23,322 nt of DNA, taken from positions 1 through 23,322 of the IMG/VR virus record IMGVR_UViG_3300020424_000030; one strand, 5' to 3'. This stretch comes from a virus. Position numbers and translations under genes: made by a program. Of the stretch, positions 3,130 through 21,034 are shown one piece after another. Under the pieces are notes generated by a model. It saw only the letters and a list, made by a program, of their open reading frames with translations, was not told the DNA's origin and searched no databases. Every line of letters begins with the position of its first letter. Position 1 is the first letter of the stretch.

Positions 3130-3314
3130 TGGCAAAGGAAGAAGAAATAGTTTTCACACCTGAACTTGCCAAAAAATTTCGTGAAGAATATGACAAGGCA
3201 AAAGCTCACGGCAAAGATACATTTGTATTTGAAGGTAAAGGATTCTTTACTGACTATGCAAAGTATCTGCTAGACCATCTAGAAAATGTAGGTATGTTTA
3301 GAGTTCGGCCCTAA
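3129..3314 (+). CDS. Small hypothetical protein, last gene of the rightward operon
   Basis: A 61-aa soluble, highly charged frame starts at ATG 3129, which overlaps the preceding stop by one base (TAATG). That coupling supports it as a real gene. The sequence MAKEEEIVFTPELAKKFREE suggests a helical N-terminus; the middle has aromatic residues (FVFEGKGFFTDYAKYLLDHL). No membrane segment and no family I recognise. Its last 17 bases overlap the 3' end of the lysozyme gene on the opposite strand. Confidence 0.7.
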   Translation: MAKEEEIVFTPELAKKFREEYDKAKAHGKDTFVFEGKGFFTDYAKYLLDHLENVGMFRVRP

Positions 3315-3747
3315 ATATATCTGCAATTCTTTGGGCTCGCTGACCAACTTGGCGAGCCCATTTACTATTCAAGGCTTCATCCGCCGCCGTTGTTCCGTCA
3401 TTGTTTTCTAATGCAGCCAACATATTCTGAAACTTTAGAAGGTTAGGCAACCCAAGATTATAAACCATATTAAGTATTTGTTCTTGTACTATGATAGGCT
3501 TTTCTTTTATCCAAGGTAAGCTTTGTTCTAATTCATTCCACATATCTTGTACTGTATTCTTTAATAAAAACACTGCTTCATTTTCTGTTAGCCCACCACC
3601 TGGAACTTGCTTGTCAATAAGTTTTCCATAACCTATTGTCCAATATCCTAGGTGGTCTTGGTATGCAACGTGCCTACCATTTTCTATAACACAACCTTCA
3701 TCCCTAGTGATTGCGGCAAAGAATCTATCGTGGTCTATGTGGTCCAT
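3298..3747 (-). CDS. T4-type endolysin (lysozyme, GH24)
   Basis: This 149-aa protein has the glycoside hydrolase 24 catalytic pattern: ITRDEGCVI with Glu17, YQDHLGYWTIGYGK with Asp31 and Thr37. These correspond to Glu11, Asp20 and Thr26 of T4 lysozyme. It cleaves the sugar backbone of peptidoglycan to release progeny. There is no signal peptide or SAR-type N-terminal anchor, so it should depend on a holin for access to the wall; a 3TM-type holin lies four genes upstream in the same transcript. The start ATG overlaps the stop of the preceding gene (TAATG). The C-terminal region has the usual WARQVGQRAQRI pattern. It is the last gene of the leftward block and overlaps the oppositely oriented neighbour by 17 bp. 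Confidence 0.93.
   Translation of the reverse strand: MDHIDHDRFFAAITRDEGCVIENGRHVAYQDHLGYWTIGYGKLIDKQVPGGGLTENEAVFLLKNTVQDMWNELEQSLPWIKEKPIIVQEQILNMVYNLGLPNLLKFQNMLAALENNDGTTAADEALNSKWARQVGQRAQRIADIFRAEL
3332..3360. terminator. Possible terminator hairpin inside the lysozyme 3' end
   Basis: A perfect 9-bp GC-rich inverted repeat (TGGGCTCGC / GCGAGCCCA) with an 11-nt loop lies 18 bases past the stop of the rightward operon, within lysozyme codons. On the + strand it is followed only by TTT, and on the - strand by no T-tract, so it is not a canonical intrinsic terminator. Its position at the tail-to-tail junction makes a role in stopping or processing the rightward transcript plausible. Confidence 0.4.
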
Positions 3748-6085: not shown

Positions 6086-8152
6086 TTATGGGTTAATCTT
6101 ATGCCAGAACCTAAAGTTTGTATTAGTATTGGTTCCGTGTTGATAATAATAGTTGTTGCCAATACCCCACAATGAATTGTCACTAAACCTAGCAAAGTGT
6201 GTCCAGTAACCTGAGTAGTAATGACCTATGGAATATATATCTTCAAACCTAATATCATCAGAACCTAACCACCAAGAGGATTGCCCTGTCAATGTATGTT
6301 GGTTACCACTTGGGTACATGTATGCATTAGTAAAACTTACTGCACTTGTGTTAGCTTGGTAGTCATATGGTGCTGACATATAACCCCATATCCATAGACG
6401 CCCTTGCTTATCTAATCCCCACCAACCAGGTGCATTATATCCACTGGTTCTAAATGGGAAACAAGCTATCATTTCGTTTCTAGGAAACAATACATTGTTA
6501 GTTTGAATCACACCATCAGCAGATGATGTAACTGTTTTAAGCCTATTACTTCCAAAGGTAGTTGTTTGTGGGTCAAGCACTGCACTGTTAGCAGTCGTGT
6601 TGCCTTGCATCAATTGTCCGTGACCGTTGTAGCCAAAAACGTTAAATGACATACCTGTCCTAGATGCAATGGTGTAGGTGTACATATCACCTGGGCCATC
6701 AACACCTGAAGGGTTGCCCTTCCAAGCTACTACACTTGTAGTTGACGCATTGCCACATACTTGTATTGCAGCATAATTTTCTGAACCACCTATTTGAACC
6801 CAAGCTGATTGTGCAGTTGTGTTTCCTTGGCCCAATGCACCATTGGATGCTAGTCCAATTCCATATAGGTTTCCTGATGTGTCAATGTAATACGCATTAG
6901 CATTAATATTACCATTATAATAGTAAGTATTGTTACAAAGTATTTGAGCACAGTTTGTAACAGCTGTCATTTGTGCTGGTGAAGTTCTTGCTGCACCTAG
7001 TGATGATATACTATTAGTATTAGAACCTGTGTGATAAGCATTACCATTACTATCTACAAACATAGTATCATTATATCCTGCAGATATTTGTACAATGTTT
7101 GATAAGCCAGAAATTTTTGTAGGGGTAGTAGCATTGTTTGTGTTGCCTAACCCATGTGAGCCACTGCCTCCCCAACCAAATGCATAGACATCACCATTGT
7201 GTGTAATACAAAAGTAATGTGTGTTACCCATTCCCTGGTAACCTTTAGCATCATTAGTTGCAACACAACTAACTTCCATAGAAACAGAATTTGTTGTAGC
7301 ATCAGGGCCAAAGTAAGGGTTTCTAACTAATTGGAATCTATCAACTGTATCGCCTAAGCCCAACTGGCCCGAGCCGTTTTCGCCCCCGACCCATATGTTG
7401 CCTTTGTTAGTAAGTAAGACAGTAGAATGTGTGTTGAACCATTGTCTTACAAAGTATTCGTCTGCAGCCATACCACCAAATTCCATTGATAGCTGTGCAT
7501 AATGGTGACTCATTTCAAATGAAACAGCATTAGTTCCTGAGCCTAAACCAGGGTGCATATAGCCTGCGGTCATAGGTTCGTGTTTGCTATTAAGCCAATG
7601 TGCTGAAGATGTTGTACAAATCATTTGGTCTGTGTCTCTTTTGACAGGGCCACATCTACCATTAATCATTCCATCTTGTGGAATCCAATCTGCATTTGCA
7701 CCAGACTTACCATTGTATCGAGCTAACCAGGGGTACTTACCATCAGTGCCACCAAGGGTACTGTTGTTAGAGTTAGCATATAAGGGTATATTAGTTGATA
7801 GAATGTCTTGTCCTTCAAATCCACCAACAGTTCCAAAGCCTAATGTGTTTGCACTTGTAACCTTTACAGCAGAACCAACATTACCTACAGGTACTCTAAT
7901 AGCATTGTTACCATCATGGCTAAGTAAGTCACCCGCTGTTGTTAATGGTAGTGTACCATCTGCCATCAAGTTCCAATGTGTAGTGTTACTATTGCTTGGA
8001 GCTCCTGCATTTGTTCCTGTTTTGCTAGTTGTGTTAACATAAATCCAAGAAGAACCAGCGTGTGAAACCACATCATCTGCTTCATAAGTATTGGAATTAC
8101 TAAACGCCCCACGCCAGTGAAACTTAATTTTTCCTAAATCAACGGTTGCCAT
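6086..8152 (-). CDS. Tail fibre with RCC1-like repeat propeller
   Basis: This 688-aa protein has an N-terminal module at about 10-65 (FHWRGAFSNSNTYEADDVVS ... SNTTHWNLMADG), resembling the small carbohydrate-binding or linker repeats of phage fibres. About 250-688 holds roughly seven RCC1-type repeats, each a 'G-x-hydrophobic-aromatic-x-x-G' strand with GQLGLGN-like turns: GNIWVGGENGSGQLGLGD (251), GDVYAFGWGGSGSHGLGN (320), GNAYHTGSN (370), GNLYGIGLASNGALGQGN (427), FNVFGYNGHGQLMQGN (503), GRLWIWGY (584), NSLWGIGN (659). This predicts a seven-bladed beta-propeller, likely the receptor-binding head. AAGGGGG lies before ATG 8152. It directly follows the T7-type fibre-base gene, so the two probably form one adhesion apparatus. 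Binding target unknown. Confidence 0.82.
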   Translation of the reverse strand: MATVDLGKIKFHWRGAFSNSNTYEADDVVSHAGSSWIYVNTTSKTGTNAGAPSNSNTTHWNLMADGTLPLTTAGDLLSHDGNNAIRVPVGNVGSAVKVTSANTLGFGTVGGFEGQDILSTNIPLYANSNNSTLGGTDGKYPWLARYNGKSGANADWIPQDGMINGRCGPVKRDTDQMICTTSSAHWLNSKHEPMTAGYMHPGLGSGTNAVSFEMSHHYAQLSMEFGGMAADEYFVRQWFNTHSTVLLTNKGNIWVGGENGSGQLGLGDTVDRFQLVRNPYFGPDATTNSVSMEVSCVATNDAKGYQGMGNTHYFCITHNGDVYAFGWGGSGSHGLGNTNNATTPTKISGLSNIVQISAGYNDTMFVDSNGNAYHTGSNTNSISSLGAARTSPAQMTAVTNCAQILCNNTYYYNGNINANAYYIDTSGNLYGIGLASNGALGQGNTTAQSAWVQIGGSENYAAIQVCGNASTTSVVAWKGNPSGVDGPGDMYTYTIASRTGMSFNVFGYNGHGQLMQGNTTANSAVLDPQTTTFGSNRLKTVTSSADGVIQTNNVLFPRNEMIACFPFRTSGYNAPGWWGLDKQGRLWIWGYMSAPYDYQANTSAVSFTNAYMYPSGNQHTLTGQSSWWLGSDDIRFEDIYSIGHYYSGYWTHFARFSDNSLWGIGNNYYYQHGTNTNTNFRFWHKINP

Positions 8153-9189: not shown

Positions 9190-12100
9190 TTATTCGCCAC
9201 TGCCTAAAGCCCTTTCAATATCACTTTGATTTAAATTTACCCCTTGATTCCTTTTCATTAGTTCTATTTTTTGCATAACACTGTTATCAGTTGGTGGTAT
9301 AGGATTGTTTGGTTTTTCACCTGTTAGTTTTTGATGTAAGTCAAATTCATCTTTCAATGCACCATATTGTGGGTGTTTTACATAGGTTAGTTTCTTTGCA
9401 TATATCTTATACAAAGCATCAACCTTTTTAATTTCCCTTATCTTATGACCCCTAGATGATGGTATTTTATTACCTTCTGCATCTGTTATAAAACCACCTT
9501 GTGGGCTAGGCTCATACAAGTATTGGTCTGATTGAAATAATTCTGCAAAGGTTTCTAGGATTGGTGGCGGTGGTTTAACAGCACCAACAACATCTTGTCC
9601 AAACAATTTCTTTGCATATTCTGAAGATGCAGGGTCATTGTAATATTGTTTGTAATCTGCAAAAGCAAAAGAATCTAATTTAATTCCTGGGTCTATTTGG
9701 TCAGACAACCTTGTAAGACCTGTTTGCAAAAAAGCTAATTCTTTATTTACAACATTAGCAGCAGGTTTCTTTATAACTTTAAATGGTGACCAATAGTTCC
9801 AAAATGTACCAGTGGTTTGTGGTACAACTTCACCCCATCTATTTGTGTTAACAGGCTGTGTTTCACTGCAACCAGGTGTTCTAGCACAAGCTTTTTCTAA
9901 CGCTTCATATCCACCAATAATTAGATTATCAAGTTTGTTAAGCCCTGGCACATTAGGATAAATTTCTTTTATGTCACTTGGTTTAGTAAGACTAGGGTTT
10001 GTGCCGCCGCCTGTACCTTCTACTGGTTCACCTGTTCTTTCAAACAAGCCTTTCATACCTTGACCATACATACCAACAGAAGTTACTTGGTCTTTTATTA
10101 TAACACCTGCACTAACTGCCTGTTTTGCTAATATCTGTTGTACTCTTTCAAACTTACTATCTGAATCTGCATAAGGTGTGCCTTGTAGTTCCATAAGTTC
10201 ACCAACCAATTGAATCATAGGTAGTGTTTCAGAAACATAGTTTGTTGTAGCCAAGCCAACATTTAAAACTAAATCATCATGTATCTTAGGGTCATCAATA
10301 TTATAAATTACATCTTTTGTATCTACAGCAAAGGCTATAAGACCACTAATAGGTTCATACCTTGCATAGCTTATCCACTTATATCCACCATCTTCTTGCT
10401 TAACACCTATAGAATAAGGCTCATGTGTTTCAAGCCAGTTAGCTCTTTCCTTTTTTGTTCTAGGGCCGTAGCCTGTTATTGCTATACTATCGCCAAATAT
10501 ACCAGAACCAACAGCCATTAAACCTGTGCCAATTAGTTGACCACTAATTATCTTAGACATAACAGCACGCTTTTCATCACCAGACCCACCCATAAAGACA
10601 GCCTTAAAATTACTAGGCATCATTATTCCAAATGGTGTTCTTTCTGTAATTCTAAGAAATATGTTGGTAGGTGTTTTATAAAAAGGCATCCATATTTTCA
10701 TAATAGGATGATTAATAAAACCTTGGAAATCCCTAAAGAATGCAGGTAAATCATTTTGGAATGTGACATACTTACCAAACTGTACTGCTTCATCAAATGT
10801 ACTATTACTGTGTAAAGCTTTTATATAAGCAGCTGTGGCAAGTGTTTGTGCCTTTTCATCTGGTATGCCTGCTGCTTTACTTTGTTTTAATGAATTAATT
10901 TTTGCAGTTACAGCAAGTTCTTCTATCTTCATACCTCTTGCCATTACCTTAAATACTTCATCCATAGCCACAAGTGGTCTATAGCCTTGCATACGCATCA
11001 TTGCACCAAAGCCATCTATAGCCATACCTGTAACATTATTAAATGTACTAGCATCCCTATCTATGCCAAAGGCTTCAGAGCTTATGGCTTTCATATCCAT
11101 ATCAAGTTTTGTAGCACCATCAGTTAAAGTTCTTTCATGTATAAGTGCGTATTTACCTGCGGTAAATGCCTGCATCATATATTTAAATTGACCCATAAAC
11201 ATTGCATAAGCTTCTTTAGGTTTACCTTCTAAAAGCTTTTCAAATGGTTGTAATTGTAACATTGCAAATTGTCCTACAATGTTAAATGAATGTGTTATGG
11301 GATTTGACAATAAAGCTGATTGATATATTTCTGCCATTGGGTCTAGCAGATACCTACGCATTACAGAACGTTTTGCAAACTCATGTCTTGTTCTATCATT
11401 AGGTGCTCTTTCATAGAAATATAAAAGATTATCAATTGCTTCTTCACCACCATATGCTTCTAAATAATCAATAAGATTGTTTTGAGTTATGTTGCCAGAA
11501 CCAAGCATAACACCTGATTGTTCAAAGACCTGGTTAATAGCACTTATTCTAGCCTTACTTGGTGATGCTGTGATTCTCATTGCTGCTAAACCACGTGCTG
11601 CATCTTCTTGAGCACTAAACAACATTATAGATGCATAACCTTCAAGACTTATGGCTTGAGCTGCTTTTGCTTTGTCTACAACAGAACCTGTTTTTCTAGC
11701 CTTTTTGATAAGACGTTCTGCTTCTAGCTGTAAGGCAACAACTGTTCTTCTAGCAGCTAAAAATTCTGCATCTGTAAAAGGTCTTTCACCAGGTGTTCTT
11801 TGTAATAACATTAGCAATGCATCTGCACTACCAATCATATTTGCATCTTTAATTATATCTGAAAAACCACGTTCACCAATTCTTATAAGCCTTTGACCTG
11901 ATGCAGTAGTTATGTCTTTGTAATGCATATATGTTGCAGATATAATTTCACGTAAGGCAGCATCTGCATCTTTACCCCCACCTGTTTTAATATTTTTTAG
12001 ATTAGGTACAACTACATCACCCTTATCAGAACTATACTTTGTTTTATTATTCTTTAATGGTTGTGATGTTTTAAATGTATTTTGTAGTGATACATCTTTA

Positions 12101-12504
12101 GAATATATTTCTAATTTTTTTAATTCATCTTGGGTTGCAGGTCTAATGTAAACCTTACCAGATTCTTCAACATTAATTAGTGGTGATTCAATACCACCTT
12201 CTTGCATCTTCTTAATGTTGTCTTCTTTTTTTTGTGCATCTTCTAATTGTTTTTGTTTTTGTTTTTTAAGAGCTTCACCTTCTAAAATATCTGGTTGTCT
12301 TATTTCACCTTTCTTTTTACCTTCTGTTTCTGTGTAATCATCAATAAGTTTCTTTGCGCCATCAATAACAGTCTTACTTACTTTTCTTCCTACATTATTA
12401 GCCATAGCAACTTGCACAGGCTTTTCTTCTATAACCTGTTCATCAACTAAATCCTTAGTAGTATTTAAATTATCTACTTCATCATTAGGTGGAATTGCCA
12501 TCAT
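9190..12504 (-). CDS. Large internal virion protein with polyvalent-protein domain
   Basis: In this 1104-aa protein, residues 1-180 are charged and disordered (for example KKQKQKQLEDAQKKEDNIKK). About 395-750 carry a pattern I know from large phage polyvalent proteins: SFNIVGQFAMLQLQPFEKLL (406-425), GYRPLVAMDEVFKVMARGMK (507-526), KYVTFQNDLPAFFRDF, MPFYKTPTNIFLRITERTP (606-624), HEPYSIGV and WISYARYEPISGLIA (710-724). Several amphipathic or hydrophobic helices lie at 580-680. Its place just before the fibre genes and its size match the T7 gp16 position, so ejection with the DNA and membrane passage is the likely role. I see no transglycosylase motif. The start codon could be 12504 or 12501; AAGGA favours either. 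It overlaps the upstream gene by 20 bp. Confidence 0.8.
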   Translation of the reverse strand: MMAIPPNDEVDNLNTTKDLVDEQVIEEKPVQVAMANNVGRKVSKTVIDGAKKLIDDYTETEGKKKGEIRQPDILEGEALKKQKQKQLEDAQKKEDNIKKMQEGGIESPLINVEESGKVYIRPATQDELKKLEIYSKDVSLQNTFKTSQPLKNNKTKYSSDKGDVVVPNLKNIKTGGGKDADAALREIISATYMHYKDITTASGQRLIRIGERGFSDIIKDANMIGSADALLMLLQRTPGERPFTDAEFLAARRTVVALQLEAERLIKKARKTGSVVDKAKAAQAISLEGYASIMLFSAQEDAARGLAAMRITASPSKARISAINQVFEQSGVMLGSGNITQNNLIDYLEAYGGEEAIDNLLYFYERAPNDRTRHEFAKRSVMRRYLLDPMAEIYQSALLSNPITHSFNIVGQFAMLQLQPFEKLLEGKPKEAYAMFMGQFKYMMQAFTAGKYALIHERTLTDGATKLDMDMKAISSEAFGIDRDASTFNNVTGMAIDGFGAMMRMQGYRPLVAMDEVFKVMARGMKIEELAVTAKINSLKQSKAAGIPDEKAQTLATAAYIKALHSNSTFDEAVQFGKYVTFQNDLPAFFRDFQGFINHPIMKIWMPFYKTPTNIFLRITERTPFGIMMPSNFKAVFMGGSGDEKRAVMSKIISGQLIGTGLMAVGSGIFGDSIAITGYGPRTKKERANWLETHEPYSIGVKQEDGGYKWISYARYEPISGLIAFAVDTKDVIYNIDDPKIHDDLVLNVGLATTNYVSETLPMIQLVGELMELQGTPYADSDSKFERVQQILAKQAVSAGVIIKDQVTSVGMYGQGMKGLFERTGEPVEGTGGGTNPSLTKPSDIKEIYPNVPGLNKLDNLIIGGYEALEKACARTPGCSETQPVNTNRWGEVVPQTTGTFWNYWSPFKVIKKPAANVVNKELAFLQTGLTRLSDQIDPGIKLDSFAFADYKQYYNDPASSEYAKKLFGQDVVGAVKPPPPILETFAELFQSDQYLYEPSPQGGFITDAEGNKIPSSRGHKIREIKKVDALYKIYAKKLTYVKHPQYGALKDEFDLHQKLTGEKPNNPIPPTDNSVMQKIELMKRNQGVNLNQSDIERALGSGE

Positions 12505-15500
12505 CTTGTCCTTGGTTATTTGTTATTATTTCTTTACCCATCAATGCAGCAGGTAATGCACTAAACAATGCAAAACCTTTTTTGATTCTGGCTCTAAGCT
12601 CTGGTGTAAGCTCAATGATTCTTACTTTGACCCTTTCACTATTTGCTTCACTTTGACTAAATTGTGCATTGTCACTATCGAATACTTCATTGGCTGGTAC
12701 TAACTCACCCTTTTCACCTATAGTTTTTTGTAATACTTTTGGCAGACCTTTATCATAAAAAGTAAATGTTGGTTTTAGATTAATCATAGGAATTGTTCTT
12801 GCATAATCTAATGTAGGTAAGACAAGGTGTGTAAGTTTTTCATCAGGGTCATTCATTACTATTTCATATAAACCCCTTTTAAGAGCTGCTGTACTTGCCT
12901 TTTCTACATTGTTTATAAAAGGTTCTTCTTGATAAATTGGTTCACCTTTTGCTAATGCATATATGCTTTCTTCAGAAACTTCTTTATGAATATTATTTTT
13001 TACCTTCATTAGTTCTAGCGTTGGTTTTAGGTAAGCAAATGCATAGACATCATCTGTGCTTATAACGTCATTCCAATCATCTATTACAGTGCGTTTGTAT
13101 GGGTGGGAATTATCAGCACTTTCAAAAGCTTTTAAAAAATAATCCCTATACAAAAGCTCTGTGCCAGTTAATACATTTTCTAGATATATTTTAGGGTCTT
13201 GTTCTTGTGATGGATTTAATTGTAATTTTACTTGTGGCGGCAATTCACCATTTTTTCTATAATATTGTATAATGTAATCACCTACCTTTGCCCTATCCCT
13301 AACAGGTATTTCACTAAATTTTTTACCATCTATACGAAATACTTGTGACTTCGTAATATCCATATATTCATCCATACTTAGCTTCTGTACACTATCAGGC
13401 AGTAAGTTATAGAATTCATCTACATTATCTTGTAATGCATCATGCAAATTATCCCTAGTTACAGAGTGGGTGGTTTCAAACCTATCATCAAAATATTGCA
13501 TGTAGTATTGATTCTTTGCACGAACATCATCTATACCTGGTGTTGCAGGTTCTAAGAAATTGTGTTTCTTTTTTATTGCTGTTTCTACTAAAGTTCTAGC
13601 AAGGAAAGGCCCTGAGCCATTAATATTACCAGTAACAAAAGCAGTTAAGAATTGACTAAACTGTGGTTCATCAAGTGATAACATGCTTGTTATATCAAAC
13701 ATTGTTTCAGGCACGTCAGCTGTAGCTTGATTATTAAACAGCACTTTAATTAGTGGGTCTTTATAAGTGCCATCCATTATTGCATTTTTATATTGAACAT
13801 TGGCAGCGTTGTATTCATCTACCCTTTTTTTAGTACGCAACTGTTTGCTATGTTGTTGTGCTACATCACTTTGTATTTCAAATATTACACCAAGGTTCTT
13901 TGCATTAGGGCCAACACCTGTACTATGTGTACCAAATCTTATGTGTACAAATTCATCATCACCAAAGTGTCTACCCCCTCGAATTCGCACACCACCTGGT
14001 TCTGCTTTTTCTGCTATCTTATCAGGGTCTGTAAATGATAAGGTCATTGCATAAAAGTCATCTAGATAATCAGGGGCAGCACCTGAATATTTCATACCCA
14101 TAGGTTCTGTGCCAGTGGGGTTATCAATATCTGTGTCTACATTTCTTTGAGTTGTAGCATTAATATCATAGTCAAATATATCACCAAATTCATTTTGTTG
14201 TTCTTGCGCATATTCATTTAGCCACGAAGCAAATCGTGGGTAGTCATCATATTCTACTGAATTATTAATTCTAAAATCATTCAAGGCTCTAGTAGCTTCT
14301 TCATCTTTTTGACCATTAAGGTACACACCATGTATCATTTCAGAATTACCAAATATGTAGTAACCACTCATTTCATCATATTGCCTTGGTTCATCAGACA
14401 CACCATCCATTACTAAATCCATAGCAAATACATTTGGTTCATCTGAGTTTTGTGCGCCAAAGCCAATGATGTAATTTTTAAAGTTTTTATACTCAACTTC
14501 ACCTGAATCCATTAGAAATTGTGTTAACACTTCATTGTAACCTTCAGGTCTGTCTTGGTAGTTTATTTCACCATAGATACTTTTTTGAGCTTCTAGCATA
14601 TCTTCCTTACCAGTTTCTTCAAATTGGTCTAAAAAGACTTCTTCTGGCTGTCTGTCACTACCACTTTGTTCTGCTTTTCTTGAAACATACGCTAGGTTGC
14701 GATTCATCCACGCTTCAAACTTTCCTTTAACCTCAGGTATGTCATCTATGTAACTGTCTATGAAATTAGACATTTCAATGTTAGCACCTGGTTTGCCTAC
14801 ATTGTCTGACATATATTGTTCAAATGCTAAGTTGTCATAATAATCAAGCTCATGTATTTCAGCATCTAAGGTAGTATTTGTAGCAGTAACTTCACCACCT
14901 TCAACTATAGCGCCAGCTTTTCTTGTAGTGATTTGAACCTGGTTTTCCCTTATGTAATCAACTAAATCTTTTTTATCAAAAGATACATCTTGACCATTAT
15001 TCTTAGCTTTTAATTCATCAATAAAATCATTAACACCAACCCACCTTATTTCATCTTCTTTAACACCCATATTAAGAAGCTGCCCTTTAATATTACCTGT
15101 ATTAAGTCGTGGGCTAAGGTCTTTAGCTTTTGCTAATAGTTGACTATAGAATCCATCTTTATTTAGTTCTGTTAGTAATATGTTTTCATTTATACCTGCA
15201 GCACCTACACTTTTATCTTGGTCAATTTTAGGGCCTGTGTCTTGTTTAGTTTCACTTGTTGTATCTGTGCCTTTGACTACTTCTTCTTCTTCATCAAGAA
15301 CAGCTTCTACTTTTACATTACCATCTTCTTCACCAATTGTAGCTGTTACCTTATCTTTAACATCTTTAAAAACTTCTTTACCTTTTTCTATAACCTTTGC
15401 ACCAAATGGTGAGCCCATCCTTACAAATTCTTCACCTGCTATAGCACCTACTGCTGCACTTGCACCTAACTCAGGCACACTAATTTTTTCTTGTTTGTCT

Positions 15501-16288
15501 GCATCAACTCTAACATCTTGTTCTATGTAGTTAGCTGTAGCCGAATGCACGGCAGCTAAACCACCTTCAAACATTGCAGGTTTGCTTGTAGGTGCAAGGA
15601 TAATACTTTTAAGCATAGCCTTAAAACCTGCTTTGGTGGCTTTCTTACCAGCCATTTTACCTGCTATACCAATGCCAAATGTAGCTGCACCCACCCAAGA
15701 AGTAGGGTCAAGCATTGCATAACCAAAACCTTTAGCAAAATTAAGACCACTAATACCTTCACGGTCTGCTGTTTCCATTAGATAATACATAGAAGACGCA
15801 ACACTAGGTGGCATATCAAGACCTGCTGTTGCATTGAAAACCATATAAGGAAGGTTGTAATTAAACCTTAACATAAACTCTGCACCCCACTCACCCATTT
15901 CACGTGCTGTAAGTGTGCTAGGGTCATCCATACCTGCAGCTACAACACCACCTTGGTTGTAGAAATGTCTATAAAGTTGATTACTTGCAGCTAACCAGAT
16001 TGGGTCTGTAAGTTCTGTGCCTTGTCTATCTTTCCTACGTGCAGCTATGTAATCATCTGATAAAGAAAAATCAGGAATCTTTGTAAAGTTACTTCTATAA
16101 ATATCATATTCCATAGCAGCTTCACTGCCAGGTTCTATTCCTGCAGGATAACCTTTGTCAAAAGGCAATGGCATTTCACCAGGTGTTTCTTTTACTTTGC
16201 CGTCTACTGGGTCTGTGTACGCAAATGATTTACCTACAGACCTATTAAGCTGTGTATTTTCTAGTATGTTTAAAAATGTATCACTCAT
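12485..16288 (-). CDS. Giant internal virion protein with polyvalent 'EIQSD' domain
   Basis: This is a 1267-aa protein. About 150-250 is moderately hydrophobic (GYAMLDPTSWVGAATFGIG). Residues 370-452 match a polyvalent-protein region: FYSQLLAKAKDL, then NMGVKEDEIRWVGVNDFIDE (406-425), then KKDLVDYIRENQVQI. At 778-808 lies DDEFVHIRFGTHSTGVGPN...VIFEIQSD, the signature of the same family (usually EIQSDWHQ; here EIQSDVAQQ). The C-terminus completes it with ALKRGLYEIV, FTFYDKGLPKVLQKTIGEKG (about 1175-1194) and LTPELRARIKKGFALFSA. Long acidic inserts separate the blocks. The enzymatic meaning of the domain is not known to me. By position between the 663-aa protein and the 1104-aa protein it should be part of the ejectosome. 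Confidence 0.8.
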   Translation of the reverse strand: MSDTFLNILENTQLNRSVGKSFAYTDPVDGKVKETPGEMPLPFDKGYPAGIEPGSEAAMEYDIYRSNFTKIPDFSLSDDYIAARRKDRQGTELTDPIWLAASNQLYRHFYNQGGVVAAGMDDPSTLTAREMGEWGAEFMLRFNYNLPYMVFNATAGLDMPPSVASSMYYLMETADREGISGLNFAKGFGYAMLDPTSWVGAATFGIGIAGKMAGKKATKAGFKAMLKSIILAPTSKPAMFEGGLAAVHSATANYIEQDVRVDADKQEKISVPELGASAAVGAIAGEEFVRMGSPFGAKVIEKGKEVFKDVKDKVTATIGEEDGNVKVEAVLDEEEEVVKGTDTTSETKQDTGPKIDQDKSVGAAGINENILLTELNKDGFYSQLLAKAKDLSPRLNTGNIKGQLLNMGVKEDEIRWVGVNDFIDELKAKNNGQDVSFDKKDLVDYIRENQVQITTRKAGAIVEGGEVTATNTTLDAEIHELDYYDNLAFEQYMSDNVGKPGANIEMSNFIDSYIDDIPEVKGKFEAWMNRNLAYVSRKAEQSGSDRQPEEVFLDQFEETGKEDMLEAQKSIYGEINYQDRPEGYNEVLTQFLMDSGEVEYKNFKNYIIGFGAQNSDEPNVFAMDLVMDGVSDEPRQYDEMSGYYIFGNSEMIHGVYLNGQKDEEATRALNDFRINNSVEYDDYPRFASWLNEYAQEQQNEFGDIFDYDINATTQRNVDTDIDNPTGTEPMGMKYSGAAPDYLDDFYAMTLSFTDPDKIAEKAEPGGVRIRGGRHFGDDEFVHIRFGTHSTGVGPNAKNLGVIFEIQSDVAQQHSKQLRTKKRVDEYNAANVQYKNAIMDGTYKDPLIKVLFNNQATADVPETMFDITSMLSLDEPQFSQFLTAFVTGNINGSGPFLARTLVETAIKKKHNFLEPATPGIDDVRAKNQYYMQYFDDRFETTHSVTRDNLHDALQDNVDEFYNLLPDSVQKLSMDEYMDITKSQVFRIDGKKFSEIPVRDRAKVGDYIIQYYRKNGELPPQVKLQLNPSQEQDPKIYLENVLTGTELLYRDYFLKAFESADNSHPYKRTVIDDWNDVISTDDVYAFAYLKPTLELMKVKNNIHKEVSEESIYALAKGEPIYQEEPFINNVEKASTAALKRGLYEIVMNDPDEKLTHLVLPTLDYARTIPMINLKPTFTFYDKGLPKVLQKTIGEKGELVPANEVFDSDNAQFSQSEANSERVKVRIIELTPELRARIKKGFALFSALPAALMGKEIITNNQGQDDGNST

Positions 16289-16291
16289 ATA

Positions 16292-18283
16292 TCACTCAAA
16301 AAAGTTAGGTAAAATATTATTAAACTTAGTCTTCTGGGCAGCATCACTTTGTATGGCTATAAGTTCTGCCATCATTTCCCTAAGAAATTTTTTTCTTTCT
16401 TGACTTGTAGATGTTGCATTGATTTCTGTTTGTACTGTTCTTTTAAACATTTCAAAATTAGCAAAGCCTTGGTTTGTTAATCTATTGGCTAACTTGTCCA
16501 ATGCATCTACAGAAGCTTCTTTTAGAATCTTGTCTACAACGTCATTCTTAAATTTTTCTGCACTAAAATCTTGTCTTTTTTTAGCTGTAATCAAAGCAGA
16601 TTCAATACGCCCATAGGTTTGAAGATTTGCCCTAGAAACAGATTGTGCATTAATAAGTAGATTCGCAGGCATTTTTAATGTAGCTCTTACAGCTGTTAAT
16701 ATTTCTTGTGATTCCTTATCACCTTTTGCCCGTAGCTTTTCATAATAAAATTGCAAATCCTTGTAGGTAAGTTTTCCATCTTTAAAATAACCAAGCAGCT
16801 TACTATAAGTTGTTGTTACAAAACCTGGTTCATTTATTAAATCTGCATCCAACAATGATTTTGTTGCGCCATCACTTTCTAATTTTATGTTTTCAAATGT
16901 TTCATCACCTTGCAGGTCAAATGTAGGGCCTACAATATCTTCCATTTCTTGTAGTGCTTTAGCACCTGCTTCCCTATCAACCTTATATATTTCAGTTATA
17001 AGGCTTCTAATCTTTGAAGTTTTAACTGTAGAATCCATTTCTTTATCAAGAATTGTGTCTATGATTGCTGCAGAGTTTACTTCAACTACATTAGTCTTAG
17101 CCTTTGTATATACATTCATAGCATTGGTTTCTGCAGTGCCACTTTTGATAACACTATCAACCATAAAATTTCTAACTTCTTCCAACCTTGTGCCGTCTTT
17201 TCTATAATACAAAAGTACATTCTGTACTTCCCTAGACATTTTACTAAAGGCAGAATTTTCTTTTGTGTATGTACCTTTTAGAACTTCAGTTATAGCAGTG
17301 CTAATGGCATTTCTTTGTACTGCCTGTCCTTGGGCTGTAGATGATGATGATAATATGTTTTTAATAATTACACCCTTTGCACCTGTAAGTATCGCTTCTT
17401 TCCATTCATCATCCATTTTACTAATGTATGATTCACTCATACGATAATTTATTGCTAATGCTTTTTTGTTTGCAATAAGTGTGTCTGTTATTTTTTTTGT
17501 TGTTGGGTTGTCTTTTTTGTTTTGTTCACGTTCATCTTCTGTGCCAAGAACCAATTTTCCATCTACAATTTTATAAGGGTTACCCATAGTGAAAAAAGTT
17601 TCTGCAAGCTCTTTGTCTGCATCCCAGGAACTAGCAAAGGCTGCCTTTTGCATTTCTAAAAATTCTGCATTATGTTTTACAGTGATGCTGTGTAGTTCAC
17701 TATAGGTATGCAAACCCATTTCTGCACGGAACTTTCTTGCATATGCACCATCTTCATCATCAAACACACCTGCAAAACCACTAACAATATTTTCTAATTC
17801 TGTTTTAATTACATCAGGTTGGTTCTGTGGCAGCATAGGATTCTTATCTGCACGAGCTTTTATTTCTAATATTTTCTTTTTTGCAAGTGTAGTTAAATCT
17901 AAGTATGTTTGGTCTAAGGCAGCGTTTTTAGCTTTTGTGCCAAAGGTAGAAAAACTATCGCCTATACCAGCAAGTTCTTTTCCCATTTCAGAAGTAGCTT
18001 GTTTTATAGCTTTACTTCTTATTTCTTTTTCTTCTTTAGTTCCTTTAGGTAAATTGTATGCATCTTCTAGCTGCTGCATATTAGGTGCATTTTCCATCCC
18101 ATATTCTACACCTTCAACCTTGGCAATATTGTTTGCAGCATTAATCGCAAAGGTAGTCATTTTGTCCATAGCTACTTGTAGCTGTCTATAGCCTGCAGCT
18201 TGTTCTTGCTGTTCTGCAAAATCAATTCTAGGTATTCTTATACCCCTAAGTCTTCTTTGATATGTTTCTATACGTTGTGCCAT
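16292..18283 (-). CDS. Internal virion protein, T7 gp15-like position
   Basis: This 663-aa, predominantly helical and highly charged protein begins MAQRIETYQRRLRGIRIPRI at ATG 18283, one base after the upstream stop. The longer frame to 18307 overlaps that gene and is less likely. Helical stretches with many Ala, Lys and Glu run throughout (for example DLTTLAKKKILEIKARADKN). No membrane segment or catalytic motif is seen. The size (T7 gp15 is 747 aa) and place between the gp14-like and the giant polyvalent protein support an ejection-tube component. Sequence similarity to gp15 itself is not visible to me, so the call rests on position and helicity. Confidence 0.75.
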   Translation of the reverse strand: MAQRIETYQRRLRGIRIPRIDFAEQQEQAAGYRQLQVAMDKMTTFAINAANNIAKVEGVEYGMENAPNMQQLEDAYNLPKGTKEEKEIRSKAIKQATSEMGKELAGIGDSFSTFGTKAKNAALDQTYLDLTTLAKKKILEIKARADKNPMLPQNQPDVIKTELENIVSGFAGVFDDEDGAYARKFRAEMGLHTYSELHSITVKHNAEFLEMQKAAFASSWDADKELAETFFTMGNPYKIVDGKLVLGTEDEREQNKKDNPTTKKITDTLIANKKALAINYRMSESYISKMDDEWKEAILTGAKGVIIKNILSSSSTAQGQAVQRNAISTAITEVLKGTYTKENSAFSKMSREVQNVLLYYRKDGTRLEEVRNFMVDSVIKSGTAETNAMNVYTKAKTNVVEVNSAAIIDTILDKEMDSTVKTSKIRSLITEIYKVDREAGAKALQEMEDIVGPTFDLQGDETFENIKLESDGATKSLLDADLINEPGFVTTTYSKLLGYFKDGKLTYKDLQFYYEKLRAKGDKESQEILTAVRATLKMPANLLINAQSVSRANLQTYGRIESALITAKKRQDFSAEKFKNDVVDKILKEASVDALDKLANRLTNQGFANFEMFKRTVQTEINATSTSQERKKFLREMMAELIAIQSDAAQKTKFNNILPNFFE

Positions 18284-18284
18284 A

Positions 18285-18980
18285 TTAAGCAACTTTCCTA
18301 AAATCAATACCTAGCATTTCATAGTTCACTGCTTTGTAGAAATGTTTGCCATAGAACACAGCATTAGGATAGAAGACTTCTACTTCATCTGCCATTACAC
18401 CTACATAACGACTTGGGTTACCTAGATAACTAAATTCATATAGATTTAAATTAGTGCGTGTATCTACACCTACTTTAACAATATCTTCTTTTAGACGCCT
18501 ATCACTTGTAAAACCTGCTGTTCCATATACAGAACCAGCACTAACAACACCTTCAAATACACTACCTAGTGCAGCAACCTTACCAGCTCTTTCAGCCGCT
18601 TTACCTGCACGTCTATAGTTTTCTGCCTGGTAGTTAGCCATTTGCAAGGCGATAGTTGCGTTGTCACGGGCAACAGTAAAGTCTTTGGTAGAATCATACC
18701 TAATACCTTTTTGTATTACATCTACGGGGCTTCCCGCTTCTGCAAAGTTATACCCGCCCGCACCACCTTTAGCCATTGCACTAGCCATCAATCGGTTTCT
18801 TTCCCTTAATACTTCAACACCTTGTTCCTTGTATTCTACTGCTTCACGTCTGCCTTGAATCTTTGCTTCTTCTGCTTTGGCATAATAAAGATTTCTTCTA
18901 GCCTTACCTTCATTGATTTGACCTATGCCTTTTACTACTGAACCAACTACGGCTACTGCTGCTAGTGCTGGACCGCCCAT
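18285..18980 (-). CDS. gp14-like internal virion protein with C-terminal S74/chaperone-type domain
   Basis: In this 231-aa protein, residues 1-22 are small and hydrophobic (GGPALAAVAVVGSVVKGIG), then a long Ala/Glu/Arg helix runs to about 140 (EAKIQGRREAVEYKEQGVEV, AENYRRAGKAAERAGKVAAL). This is the layout of gp14-type internal core proteins. Residues 159-228 match the peptidase S74 / intramolecular chaperone domain: SDRRLKEDIVKVG (Ser159, Lys164 as the usual dyad), LNLYEFSYLG, RYVGVMADEV, YPNAV, then KAVNYEMLGI. In tail spikes this domain trimerises the fibre and then cleaves itself off; here it would sit on an internal protein. It overlaps the upstream gene stop by one base (TAATG). Confidence 0.85.
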   Translation of the reverse strand: MGGPALAAVAVVGSVVKGIGQINEGKARRNLYYAKAEEAKIQGRREAVEYKEQGVEVLRERNRLMASAMAKGGAGGYNFAEAGSPVDVIQKGIRYDSTKDFTVARDNATIALQMANYQAENYRRAGKAAERAGKVAALGSVFEGVVSAGSVYGTAGFTSDRRLKEDIVKVGVDTRTNLNLYEFSYLGNPSRYVGVMADEVEVFYPNAVFYGKHFYKAVNYEMLGIDFRKVA

Positions 18981-21034
18981 TATGAACCCCCTGTTGAAAC
19001 ACTATAGTCTAGTGAAAGTAATGTTAAGAAGACTGGTTGTGTTTGTGTGATTGATATTATTGCATCTGTGGAATATCCTAATATTCCTTTTTGTCTTTTA
19101 GTTCCTGTAAATGTAGAAACACCGCCACTACCTGGTATAGGAAGTGTGGTGAGGTTGACTTCTGTTCCATTTATAGCAAGGTTTTGTGACCTATATAAAA
19201 TAGGATTCACATCAACTATTCTTTTCTTTTGTGCTTGAACACTAGGAACACCAGGTAATTGCAATTCTACAGGCATTGTTTCTACTACAACTTCATAGTC
19301 TAAGCCTGCTTCTACAAAGCTTGTTGGTGTGTCTGCAGTGGTTATATTACCACTAGATACAACAGAACTAGCATCAACTATATTATCCCTTATAACAGCT
19401 GCAGTTTTACCTTCTATATGTGAATGACCACCTATTGTTGTTCCACTAAAACCAGATAGGGTTTGCACAGCAGAATCGGTTGTGAAGTCATCATCAAATA
19501 CTTCTACATAGTATTTTACTTGACCATTTATAGTTCTTTTGACTGTTACATAAATGGTATCTAAATCCACTGCCACATCTGTAAAAGAACCATCTGTTTG
19601 TAAAAAACTTGGTGCTACAACATTTTGTTGTTTGTTTAACATAAAAGCAGCTATACCACCTGTGAATCCAGTAGATGCAGAACGGTAACCAGTTGAGCTT
19701 TCACCATTAACAATCAACAACAAGTCACCTTCTGTTGTGTCTGTTGCAGGTCTAAGTGACATTCTTATAGGGTCAACTATCATATGTGATGAAAGCAAAG
19801 AAATATTGTTAGAAACATAGGAAAGTTCTACATCACTAAACAACATTTCCCTAAGTGTCTTACCTTGTCTTTGTATAAATAATGTGCCTGTTTCCGCCGC
19901 TGTAGGTCTTATACCTTCCTTTGACCCACGTTTTGTTGCAGATTTTAGAACAATGTTATTTGGTGTGATTGGTTCTAAGTCAGTCTGAGGTAGAAAAAAC
20001 TCAGCTCCAGTTGTGAAGACCTGAAGGTCTCTACCACTACGCATACCTGTGATTGCGTTTAAACTATCGGTTTGTAAGGTAACTTTTATCGCATCATCAT
20101 CCAAACCTTCTGCTGGTTTAAAATTAAATATATCTGCAACCTTAGATGCAAATAATGTAGATGGTAAAGCATAGCTGCCGCCAAAGTATAATCGTCCTTC
20201 GTGGAATGTTACTGTTCTGGGCCAACCCCTTGTGTTTGACCAGGCATCTTCAAACCCTTCTTCTAATGTCCAATCACCTGCAGCAATAGCATCTGTGCTA
20301 AAAAAAGGCACTTCTGCTTGTGCATCTACTTTTGTAGCACTTGTAAACTTAACAATCCTAGCTCTACCAAAACCATTATTAACATCTATAAATTGGTCTA
20401 CCATTGCCTGGGTAAAGAAACTAGCACCAGCTGTAAGGGTGATAGTATCATCTGTTCCACTAGGTGTTATGGTTGTTGTGCCTTGTGTGTTAGACTTTGT
20501 AAATTGATGTTTAGGTGGTGTTAGCTGTATAAAACTAGCAGACCATATGTTATCTGCTATACCCCTTTTTAATTGTATAGGGTTAAAGTTTTCGTGTACT
20601 AAAAGCAATGTATCTGCAGATTGTGCAAAATTTAATTTAGTAATATCAAAGTTAGTTACACCTGTTAGTGCGCCCACATTAAAATCTAAGTAAGGCACAC
20701 CGCCATTGTTTATATTATCAATAACTTGTTGGTTTTGATAAAACACAAATCTAATTGTGGTTTGTGTATTAAAACCTATAGCAGCTATCATAAAGGTTTG
20801 TGTTGTGCTAAACTCAAAAGGTATTAGAACAGTACCATTAGCTGCACCAAAGCTTGTAATGTCTTGTATAAATTTTAATCCTGGTCTTCTACTAAAGCCA
20901 CCTTGTGGTTCAAACAAAACATTCTTGGCCCTAGATGCACCTGCATAATATTGTTGTATATCAATTCTACCCCTAATTAAGGGGTCAATTTCACCAACAG
21001 TAAAACTAGCTTGATACCTTTTGACTGAGCTCAC
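18980..21034 (-). CDS. Tail tubular protein B / nozzle (T7 gp12-like)
   Basis: The N-terminus of this 684-aa protein has the podovirus nozzle signature: FTVGEIDPLIRGRIDIQQYY (11-30), RAKNVLFEPQGGFSRRPGLK (35-54), then a beta-rich body with TRGWPRTVTFHEGRLYFGGS and the ATKRGSKEGIRPTAAETGTL segment. These proteins form the hexameric tube below the adaptor, hold DNA in place and open on adsorption. The length is a little under that of T7 gp12 (794 aa). The start codon is GTG at 21034, which overlaps the adaptor stop by 4 bases (GTGA), so the two are translationally coupled. It has no membrane segment and is rich in Thr, Ser and Asp. Confidence 0.9.
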   Translation of the reverse strand: MSSVKRYQASFTVGEIDPLIRGRIDIQQYYAGASRAKNVLFEPQGGFSRRPGLKFIQDITSFGAANGTVLIPFEFSTTQTFMIAAIGFNTQTTIRFVFYQNQQVIDNINNGGVPYLDFNVGALTGVTNFDITKLNFAQSADTLLLVHENFNPIQLKRGIADNIWSASFIQLTPPKHQFTKSNTQGTTTITPSGTDDTITLTAGASFFTQAMVDQFIDVNNGFGRARIVKFTSATKVDAQAEVPFFSTDAIAAGDWTLEEGFEDAWSNTRGWPRTVTFHEGRLYFGGSYALPSTLFASKVADIFNFKPAEGLDDDAIKVTLQTDSLNAITGMRSGRDLQVFTTGAEFFLPQTDLEPITPNNIVLKSATKRGSKEGIRPTAAETGTLFIQRQGKTLREMLFSDVELSYVSNNISLLSSHMIVDPIRMSLRPATDTTEGDLLLIVNGESSTGYRSASTGFTGGIAAFMLNKQQNVVAPSFLQTDGSFTDVAVDLDTIYVTVKRTINGQVKYYVEVFDDDFTTDSAVQTLSGFSGTTIGGHSHIEGKTAAVIRDNIVDASSVVSSGNITTADTPTSFVEAGLDYEVVVETMPVELQLPGVPSVQAQKKRIVDVNPILYRSQNLAINGTEVNLTTLPIPGSGGVSTFTGTKRQKGILGYSTDAIISITQTQPVFLTLLSLDYSVSTGGS

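Follow-up and report, generated by a model that had tools for sequence, protein, structure and literature searches.

A putative split gp16-type ejection protein carrying a variable polyvalent-protein module in a probable marine podovirus

Background

Phage effectors that are ejected into the host have often been proposed, but have seldom been tied to a defined machine. Here, we examine a pair of proteins of 1267 and 1104 amino acids encoded at positions 9,190-16,288 of IMG/VR record IMGVR_UViG_3300020424_000030 (23,322 bases; we refer to this whole stretch as the window), and compare them with the closest described systems. In phage T7, the N-terminal part of the ejection protein gp16 (gp16-N) remains in the periplasm, where it forms the wings of the gp15 tunnel, and in the marine phage P-SSP7 the inner core vanishes once the particle is attached to its host (reviewed in PMC8954989). 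The locus resembles this arrangement in its position after genes for tail tubular proteins A and B and gp14- and gp15-like proteins, in that its two halves form one chain in relatives, and in a C-terminal family common to marine T7-like phages, including P-SSP7 (gene 16) and Syn5 (gp45). It differs from T7 gp16 in being divided into two polypeptides, in an extra module of ~870 aa, and in the absence of a detected transglycosylase and of any direct sequence match.

Polyvalent proteins are a second point of comparison, and two RimI-like GNAT families and 40 LPDs have already been described in them (PMC5512222). The extra module, marked by the motif EIQSD, is common to giant open reading frames (ORFs) with LPD38, ART-PolyVal, or helicase domains, whereas the chain in our window reads as a T7-type ejection protein rather than a giant multi-enzyme one, and lacks the named Pfam polyvalent domains. 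Finally, abundant pelagiphages of the HTVC010P type carry a published hypervariable island that likewise includes an internal virion protein gene, but that was described with a ribonuclease (PMC6487183, PMC10504331).

We find that the two proteins are best read, from homology and gene order, as a single T7-gp16-type ejection protein (internal virion protein D) encoded in two halves, and we consider it reasonably probable that this protein, its N-terminal half enlarged by the polyvalent module, is ejected with the DNA and that the module acts on the host. The data show that both halves are homologous to gp16-type proteins, that they lie in the ejection-protein operon, that the module is related to polyvalent proteins, and that module alleles are replaced between close relatives; presence in virions, ejection, passage across the inner membrane, GNAT chemistry, and the target are inferred. 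This links a widespread module that no Pfam model covers to a T7-type ejectosome, with a candidate fold and with a representative in a cultured SAR11 phage; if the reading is true, phages may introduce a protein that modifies the host as soon as infection begins.

Homology to gp16-type ejection proteins

Both ORFs reported in the initial annotation are present at their coordinates, and every motif quoted for the two proteins is found in the translations. Using tblastn, we matched the 1267-aa protein to 'internal virion D' of LUZ100 by its N-terminal region only (aa 98-269, E 4e-6), and the middle of the 1104-aa protein to 'internal virion protein D' of HTVC011P, Syn5, and others. We then built profiles of the N-terminal domain of the 1267-aa protein (NT) and of the 1104-aa family (CT). 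The NT profile matches 123 ORFs, LUZ100 gp47 among them, and in 41 ORFs (LUZ100 gp16 included) NT and CT follow one another collinearly within a single chain. The split form also recurs in other phages, as adjacent ORFs with an NT protein of 470-500 aa and a CT protein of 1030-1110 aa, and the CT family extends to P-SSP7 gene 16, a 'T7-like internal core protein'. These fused ORFs, split pairs, and the P-SSP7 protein therefore suggest that the gp16-type protein of our window is split, with a separate 671-aa protein in the place of gp15. The pair had previously been placed at the T7 gp15/gp16 position; the ejection-protein operon stands, but the division into gp15 plus gp16 does not.

The CT gene starts within a 20-base overlap with the 1267-aa gene and has its own AAGGA ribosome-binding site inside that overlap. 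A +1 frameshift fusing both ORFs was considered and is disfavored; separate initiation of CT is simpler, because the CT start is preceded by a ribosome-binding site, which reads AAGGA in the window and GAAGGAGGGG in L018 (L-numbers label the related contigs and phages of our comparisons). In Methylophilales phage MEP301, the CT family is itself split over two overlapping ORFs (gp24/gp23; L007 4611-7710).

The initial annotation had also taken two signatures of the 1104-aa protein, AMDEVFKVMARGMK (aa 513-526) and FQNDLPAFFRDF (aa 582-593), as polyvalent hallmarks, a claim that we do not retain. Their AMDEVFK and FQNDLP motifs belong to the gp16 C-half, and their residues are conserved in ordinary gp16-type internal virion proteins; the surrounding region matches PHROG 6651 'internal virion protein' (1.3e-20), and no giant ORF of our set matches the 1104 profile. 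LPD38 (PF18857) was ruled out as their identity, with no profile match; searched against LPD38-bearing ORFs, the CT profile reached at best a non-significant E of 0.048 across 50 residues.

The polyvalent module and its predicted fold

Within the 1267-aa protein, the module occupies aa ~376-1251 and is marked by GVKEDE, EIQSD, and FYDK, with GVKEDEIRWVGV at aa 408-419. Judging from models of its relatives, it probably combines a GNAT-like core (EIQSD ... FYDK ... TP), interrupted by a long insertion, with a small helical part (GVKEDE), the predicted elements of the core being strands around HFGDDEFVHIR and EIQSD, a helix at ALKRG, the FYDK helix, and a strand at ELTPEL. Against the full module profile (31 independent relatives), the protein scores 53.8 bits (E 7.5e-18, nine-sequence search), and against a second profile 23.3 bits, compared with 6.6 for the best of 2000 shuffled copies; the match is thus not due to chance. 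It depends mostly on the GVKEDE part and on the C-terminal tail. The module profile also matches L018, L002, and L003 (E 3e-19 to 2e-13). As the relatives were selected by the EIQSD motif, conservation of EIQSD inside this set is by construction.

A DNA pattern for EEIQSDWHQ occurs in at least 120 IMG/VR stretches and in 44 contigs among GTDB genomes, from many phyla. In L094, L086, and L118, the module shares one ORF with LPD38, and in L094 and L118 also with ART-PolyVal or helicase domains, from which we conclude that it is truly part of polyvalent proteins, as had been proposed for the signatures of the 1267-aa protein. It is also present in many ORFs of ~700-800 aa outside podovirus ejection proteins. 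The suggested profile search against polyvalent families gave a divided answer: a Pfam scan finds none of the named polyvalent domains in the window proteins, while the family profile of the module does match the 1267-aa protein. This protein has no Pfam or PHROG match, and no Pfam model matched the module among the members scanned; the module may correspond to one of the RimI-like families or to one of the 40 LPDs of PMC5512222, possibly one lacking a Pfam model. Measured against the polyvalent criterion of several disparate enzymatic domains, the 1267-aa chain comprises one ejection domain and one GNAT-like module, with no second enzyme identified.

Evidence on the fold comes from AlphaFold models of the relatives L109 (pLDDT mostly >90 in the module) and L058 (mean pLDDT 86), with PDB structure searches made using the L109 model. 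GNAT acetyltransferases account for 27 of the 50 listed Foldseek rows, and VIA-align Z scores reach 9.8 for the Rv1916/ICL2 C-terminal domain, 8.4 for NatD, 8.2 for AtaT, 8.1 for TacT2, and 7.6 for GCN5, which suggests that the module resembles GNAT acetyltransferases most. We regard this as suggestive only, because middling Z scores are common and the best Foldseek E is 0.28. The GNAT element order, b1-a1-a2-b2-b3-b4-a3-b5-a4-b6-b7, can be read from the predicted secondary structure of both models, although the module has large insertions. In the relatives' models and alignments, the Glu of EIQSD lies at the end of beta-4 and the invariant FYDK Tyr in alpha-4, and both positions are retained in the window copy and in full-length relatives. 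The LALKRLLREAAENGYDRIAWTT segment falls in register with GNAT alpha-3/beta-5 in hhalign, without significance. No PDB sequence match was obtained for the 1267-aa protein, the 1104-aa protein, or the module. Where the initial annotation had called the domain function undescribed, we can therefore narrow it to a GNAT-like predicted fold with a putative enzymatic activity.

Allele replacement between conserved flanks

Comparison of close relatives revealed that much of the module behaves as a hypervariable cassette. L003 and L018 are 96% identical in CT, 98% in the fiber, and 92% in NT, and across aa ~440-1200 of the module protein identity falls to about 34-39%, with dS saturated, close to 1, or higher, before returning to 94% over its final 31 residues. 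The window and L001 likewise share 99.6% in tail tubular protein B, 97% in gp15, and 97% in NT, and only 42-46% from aa 441 to the end of the L001 contig. Overall, the alleles exchanged in the two phage pairs are 35-45% identical, and their flanks mostly 83-100%. Within the module, L003 and L018 (39%) are no nearer to one another than to the distant L002 (38%), and at aa 441-740 L018 is nearer to L002 (49%) than to L003 (34%). For these two pairs, recombinational replacement of module alleles appears to be the simplest reading, and would fit a part that touches host factors. A scan for further alleles via the conserved C-terminal tail returned no new phages.

The same slot in other phages

The order major capsid protein, tail tubular proteins A and B, gp14, gp15, module protein, CT, and fiber recurs, completely or partially, in L021, L109, L116, L040, L114, and the cultured Pelagibacter phage HTVC028P. 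In the first four, the module protein comes after gp14/gp15-like genes or before CT, and in L114 it has its own NT domain (E 1.8e-14). HTVC028P carries the module in gp34 (954 aa, 197 bits) and CT in gp33 (985 aa, 269 bits), in the same order as in the window, but differs in that the NT profile does not recognize the N-terminal region of gp34. With the exceptions of HTVC028P and, for CT, MEP301, neither family was detected in the other HTVC010P-type isolates. The shared layout of HTVC028P leaves this system open to testing in culture.

The slot can also hold other sequences. In L017 (3238-7122), NT is followed by an ART-PolyVal-like domain (24.3 bits, 5.8e-5, below the Pfam cut-off; phrog_4700 2.6e-8), and the gp16-type protein of L223 (3232-4731) has a LYHGS-type motif, as a motif only, in the corresponding region after NT. 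L015 (5374-9015) has NT and downstream sequence as in L017, with an unrelated insert in place of the ART domain. Separately, the HTVC010P-type pelagiphages HTVC028P (gp37; L306 15962-16423) and, at equivalent loci, L337-L342 have an annotated acetyltransferase gene between tail tubular B and gp14, which the window does not. Mutual exclusion of this gp13-position gene and the module is not supported, as HTVC028P has both.

A broader, tentative proposal, possible but in our judgment short of probable, is that the ejection protein of some marine podoviruses serves as a vehicle with an interchangeable cargo slot. Through it, a GNAT-like acyltransferase (elsewhere an ADP-ribosyltransferase) would enter before phage gene expression, and recombination between conserved flanks would exchange its alleles without altering the machine. 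This offers a testable reason for hypervariable islands in virion-core genes of abundant ocean phages, namely that part of a core protein may be arms-race cargo.

Proposed mechanism and alternative explanations

In the mechanism that we favor, the gp16-type protein would be packed inside the virion core, exit by way of the tail, together with the gp14- and gp15-like proteins, during DNA ejection, help to form the envelope conduit, and take the module along into the host, where this part would act on a host or defense target, most likely as an acyltransferase-like effector. Homology and position give good grounds for a probable entry of both proteins with the DNA, as the initial annotation had argued.

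Several results weigh against this mechanism. An N-terminal lytic transglycosylase is present in T7 gp16 and absent from P22-like phages, hence not universal, and we find none in the window proteins with Pfam up to E 1. Canonical GNATs have an R/QxxGxG/A coenzyme A loop; the loop glycines after EIQSD are missing in the window copy (EIQSDVAQQHSKQ), which may therefore be non-catalytic; the relatives L002/L003 read ...YGKG, and the loop in relatives is non-canonical. The module has no Pfam acetyltransferase match, its profile is not significantly similar to GNAT profiles by hhalign, and the Foldseek E value given above points the same way. The window proteins also have no sequence match to the solved T7 gp16, so that the T7 link rests on synteny and family annotation; the LUZ100 authors likewise detected no T7 gp16 homology (PMC10134795). 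Finally, given the periplasmic location of T7 gp16-N, a module on the N-half might fail to reach the cytoplasm.

That location also underlies the main rival, in which the module forms an envelope-facing section of the gp16-N channel, variable through contact with the host's periplasm, peptidoglycan, or inner-membrane receptor, and no effector at all. The module does sit on the N-half, and envelope-contacting parts are expected to vary as tail fibers do. We nevertheless think this rather unlikely, given that the module also occurs in giant helicase/ART/LPD38 proteins and in the many smaller ORFs, that an ART-PolyVal-like domain stands between NT and CT in L017, and that the predicted fold resembles an enzyme.

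Rapid allele replacement and the missing loop glycines, which HTVC028P gp34 (EMQSDLLQASKTEMF) lacks as well, would suit a GNAT-like module that is ejected and, having no catalytic activity, serves as a decoy or inhibitor by binding host defense factors or ligands. This is unlikely in our view, as the window and its full-length relatives retain Glu in beta-4 and Tyr in alpha-4. A peptidoglycan hydrolase is improbable: two cyanophage relatives are annotated 'lysin' and the module's sole PHROG match is phrog_7348 ('endolysin', 2564 aa), but that match is confined to positions 1623-2102, so the label may stem from another domain, the structure lists contain no hydrolase fold, there is no lysozyme Pfam match, and a distinct lysozyme-like gene lies elsewhere in the window (3298-3747). 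Least of all do we expect ordinary tail or head proteins that stay in the particle, for which the late-gene position offers nothing specific, and against which stand the relationship of each half to internal virion protein D families and the loss of the P-SSP7 core after attachment.

Gene order and neighboring genes

The window is a fragment of a podovirus, very probably a marine one, as its relatives are mostly marine phages. By tail tubular protein B, its closest cultured phage is MEP301 (44%), followed by HTVC010P-type pelagiphages, and the gp16-type order of tail tubular B, gp14-like, gp15-like, gp16, and fiber is found in the window (Table 1).

Table 1 Features of the protein pair and adjacent genes in the window
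Feature	Position	Strand	Basis
Tail tubular protein B	18980..21034	-	phrog_376 7e-110; best cultured match MEP301 44%
gp14-like internal virion protein, S74 peptidase-like tail	18285..18980	-	phrog_418 9.1e-14; Peptidase_S74 7.6e-8
671-aa protein, gp15 (internal virion protein C) position	16292..18307	-	Synteny; profile matches L021 2e-10, MEP301 gp26 4e-8
1267-aa protein, putative N-half of split gp16-type ejection protein, polyvalent module C-terminal	12485..16288	-	
NT domain of gp16-type proteins, aa ~90-310, FNYNLP ... DPTSWVGAATFG	15359..16021	-	NT profile; tblastn LUZ100
Module part 1, aa 379-455, GFYS ... GVKEDEIRWVGV ... ENQVQI	14924..15154	-	hhalign probability 99.7 to EIQSD-family profile; 35.4 bits over aa 376-602
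Module part 2, predicted GNAT-like core with large insertion, aa ~745-1251	12536..14056	-	Fold from relatives' models
EIQSD motif, aa 804-808	13865..13879	-	
FYDKGLPKVLQK motif, aa 1177-1188	12725..12760	-	Tyr invariant in 63- and 70-sequence alignments
Hypervariable cassette, aa ~440-1235	12584..14971	-	Boundaries inferred from relatives (window/L001, L003/L018)
1104-aa protein, putative C-half of split gp16-type ejection protein	9190..12504	-	PHROG 6651; CT profile; tblastn to marine internal virion protein D

The Peptidase_S74 (endosialidase chaperone-like) segment is C-terminal in the gp14-like protein of the window, and the L002 homologue of this protein is just 160 aa long. A 688-aa RCC1-repeat-like protein (6086-8152), with relatives in L003 and L018, is encoded immediately after the tail-fiber-like gene. 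At positions 2-2897 on the plus strand, opposite in orientation to the structural genes, we observed DNA-invertase/serine recombinase-like, RecE-like, and RecT-like genes, which make up a recombination system and might be used for exchanging alleles.

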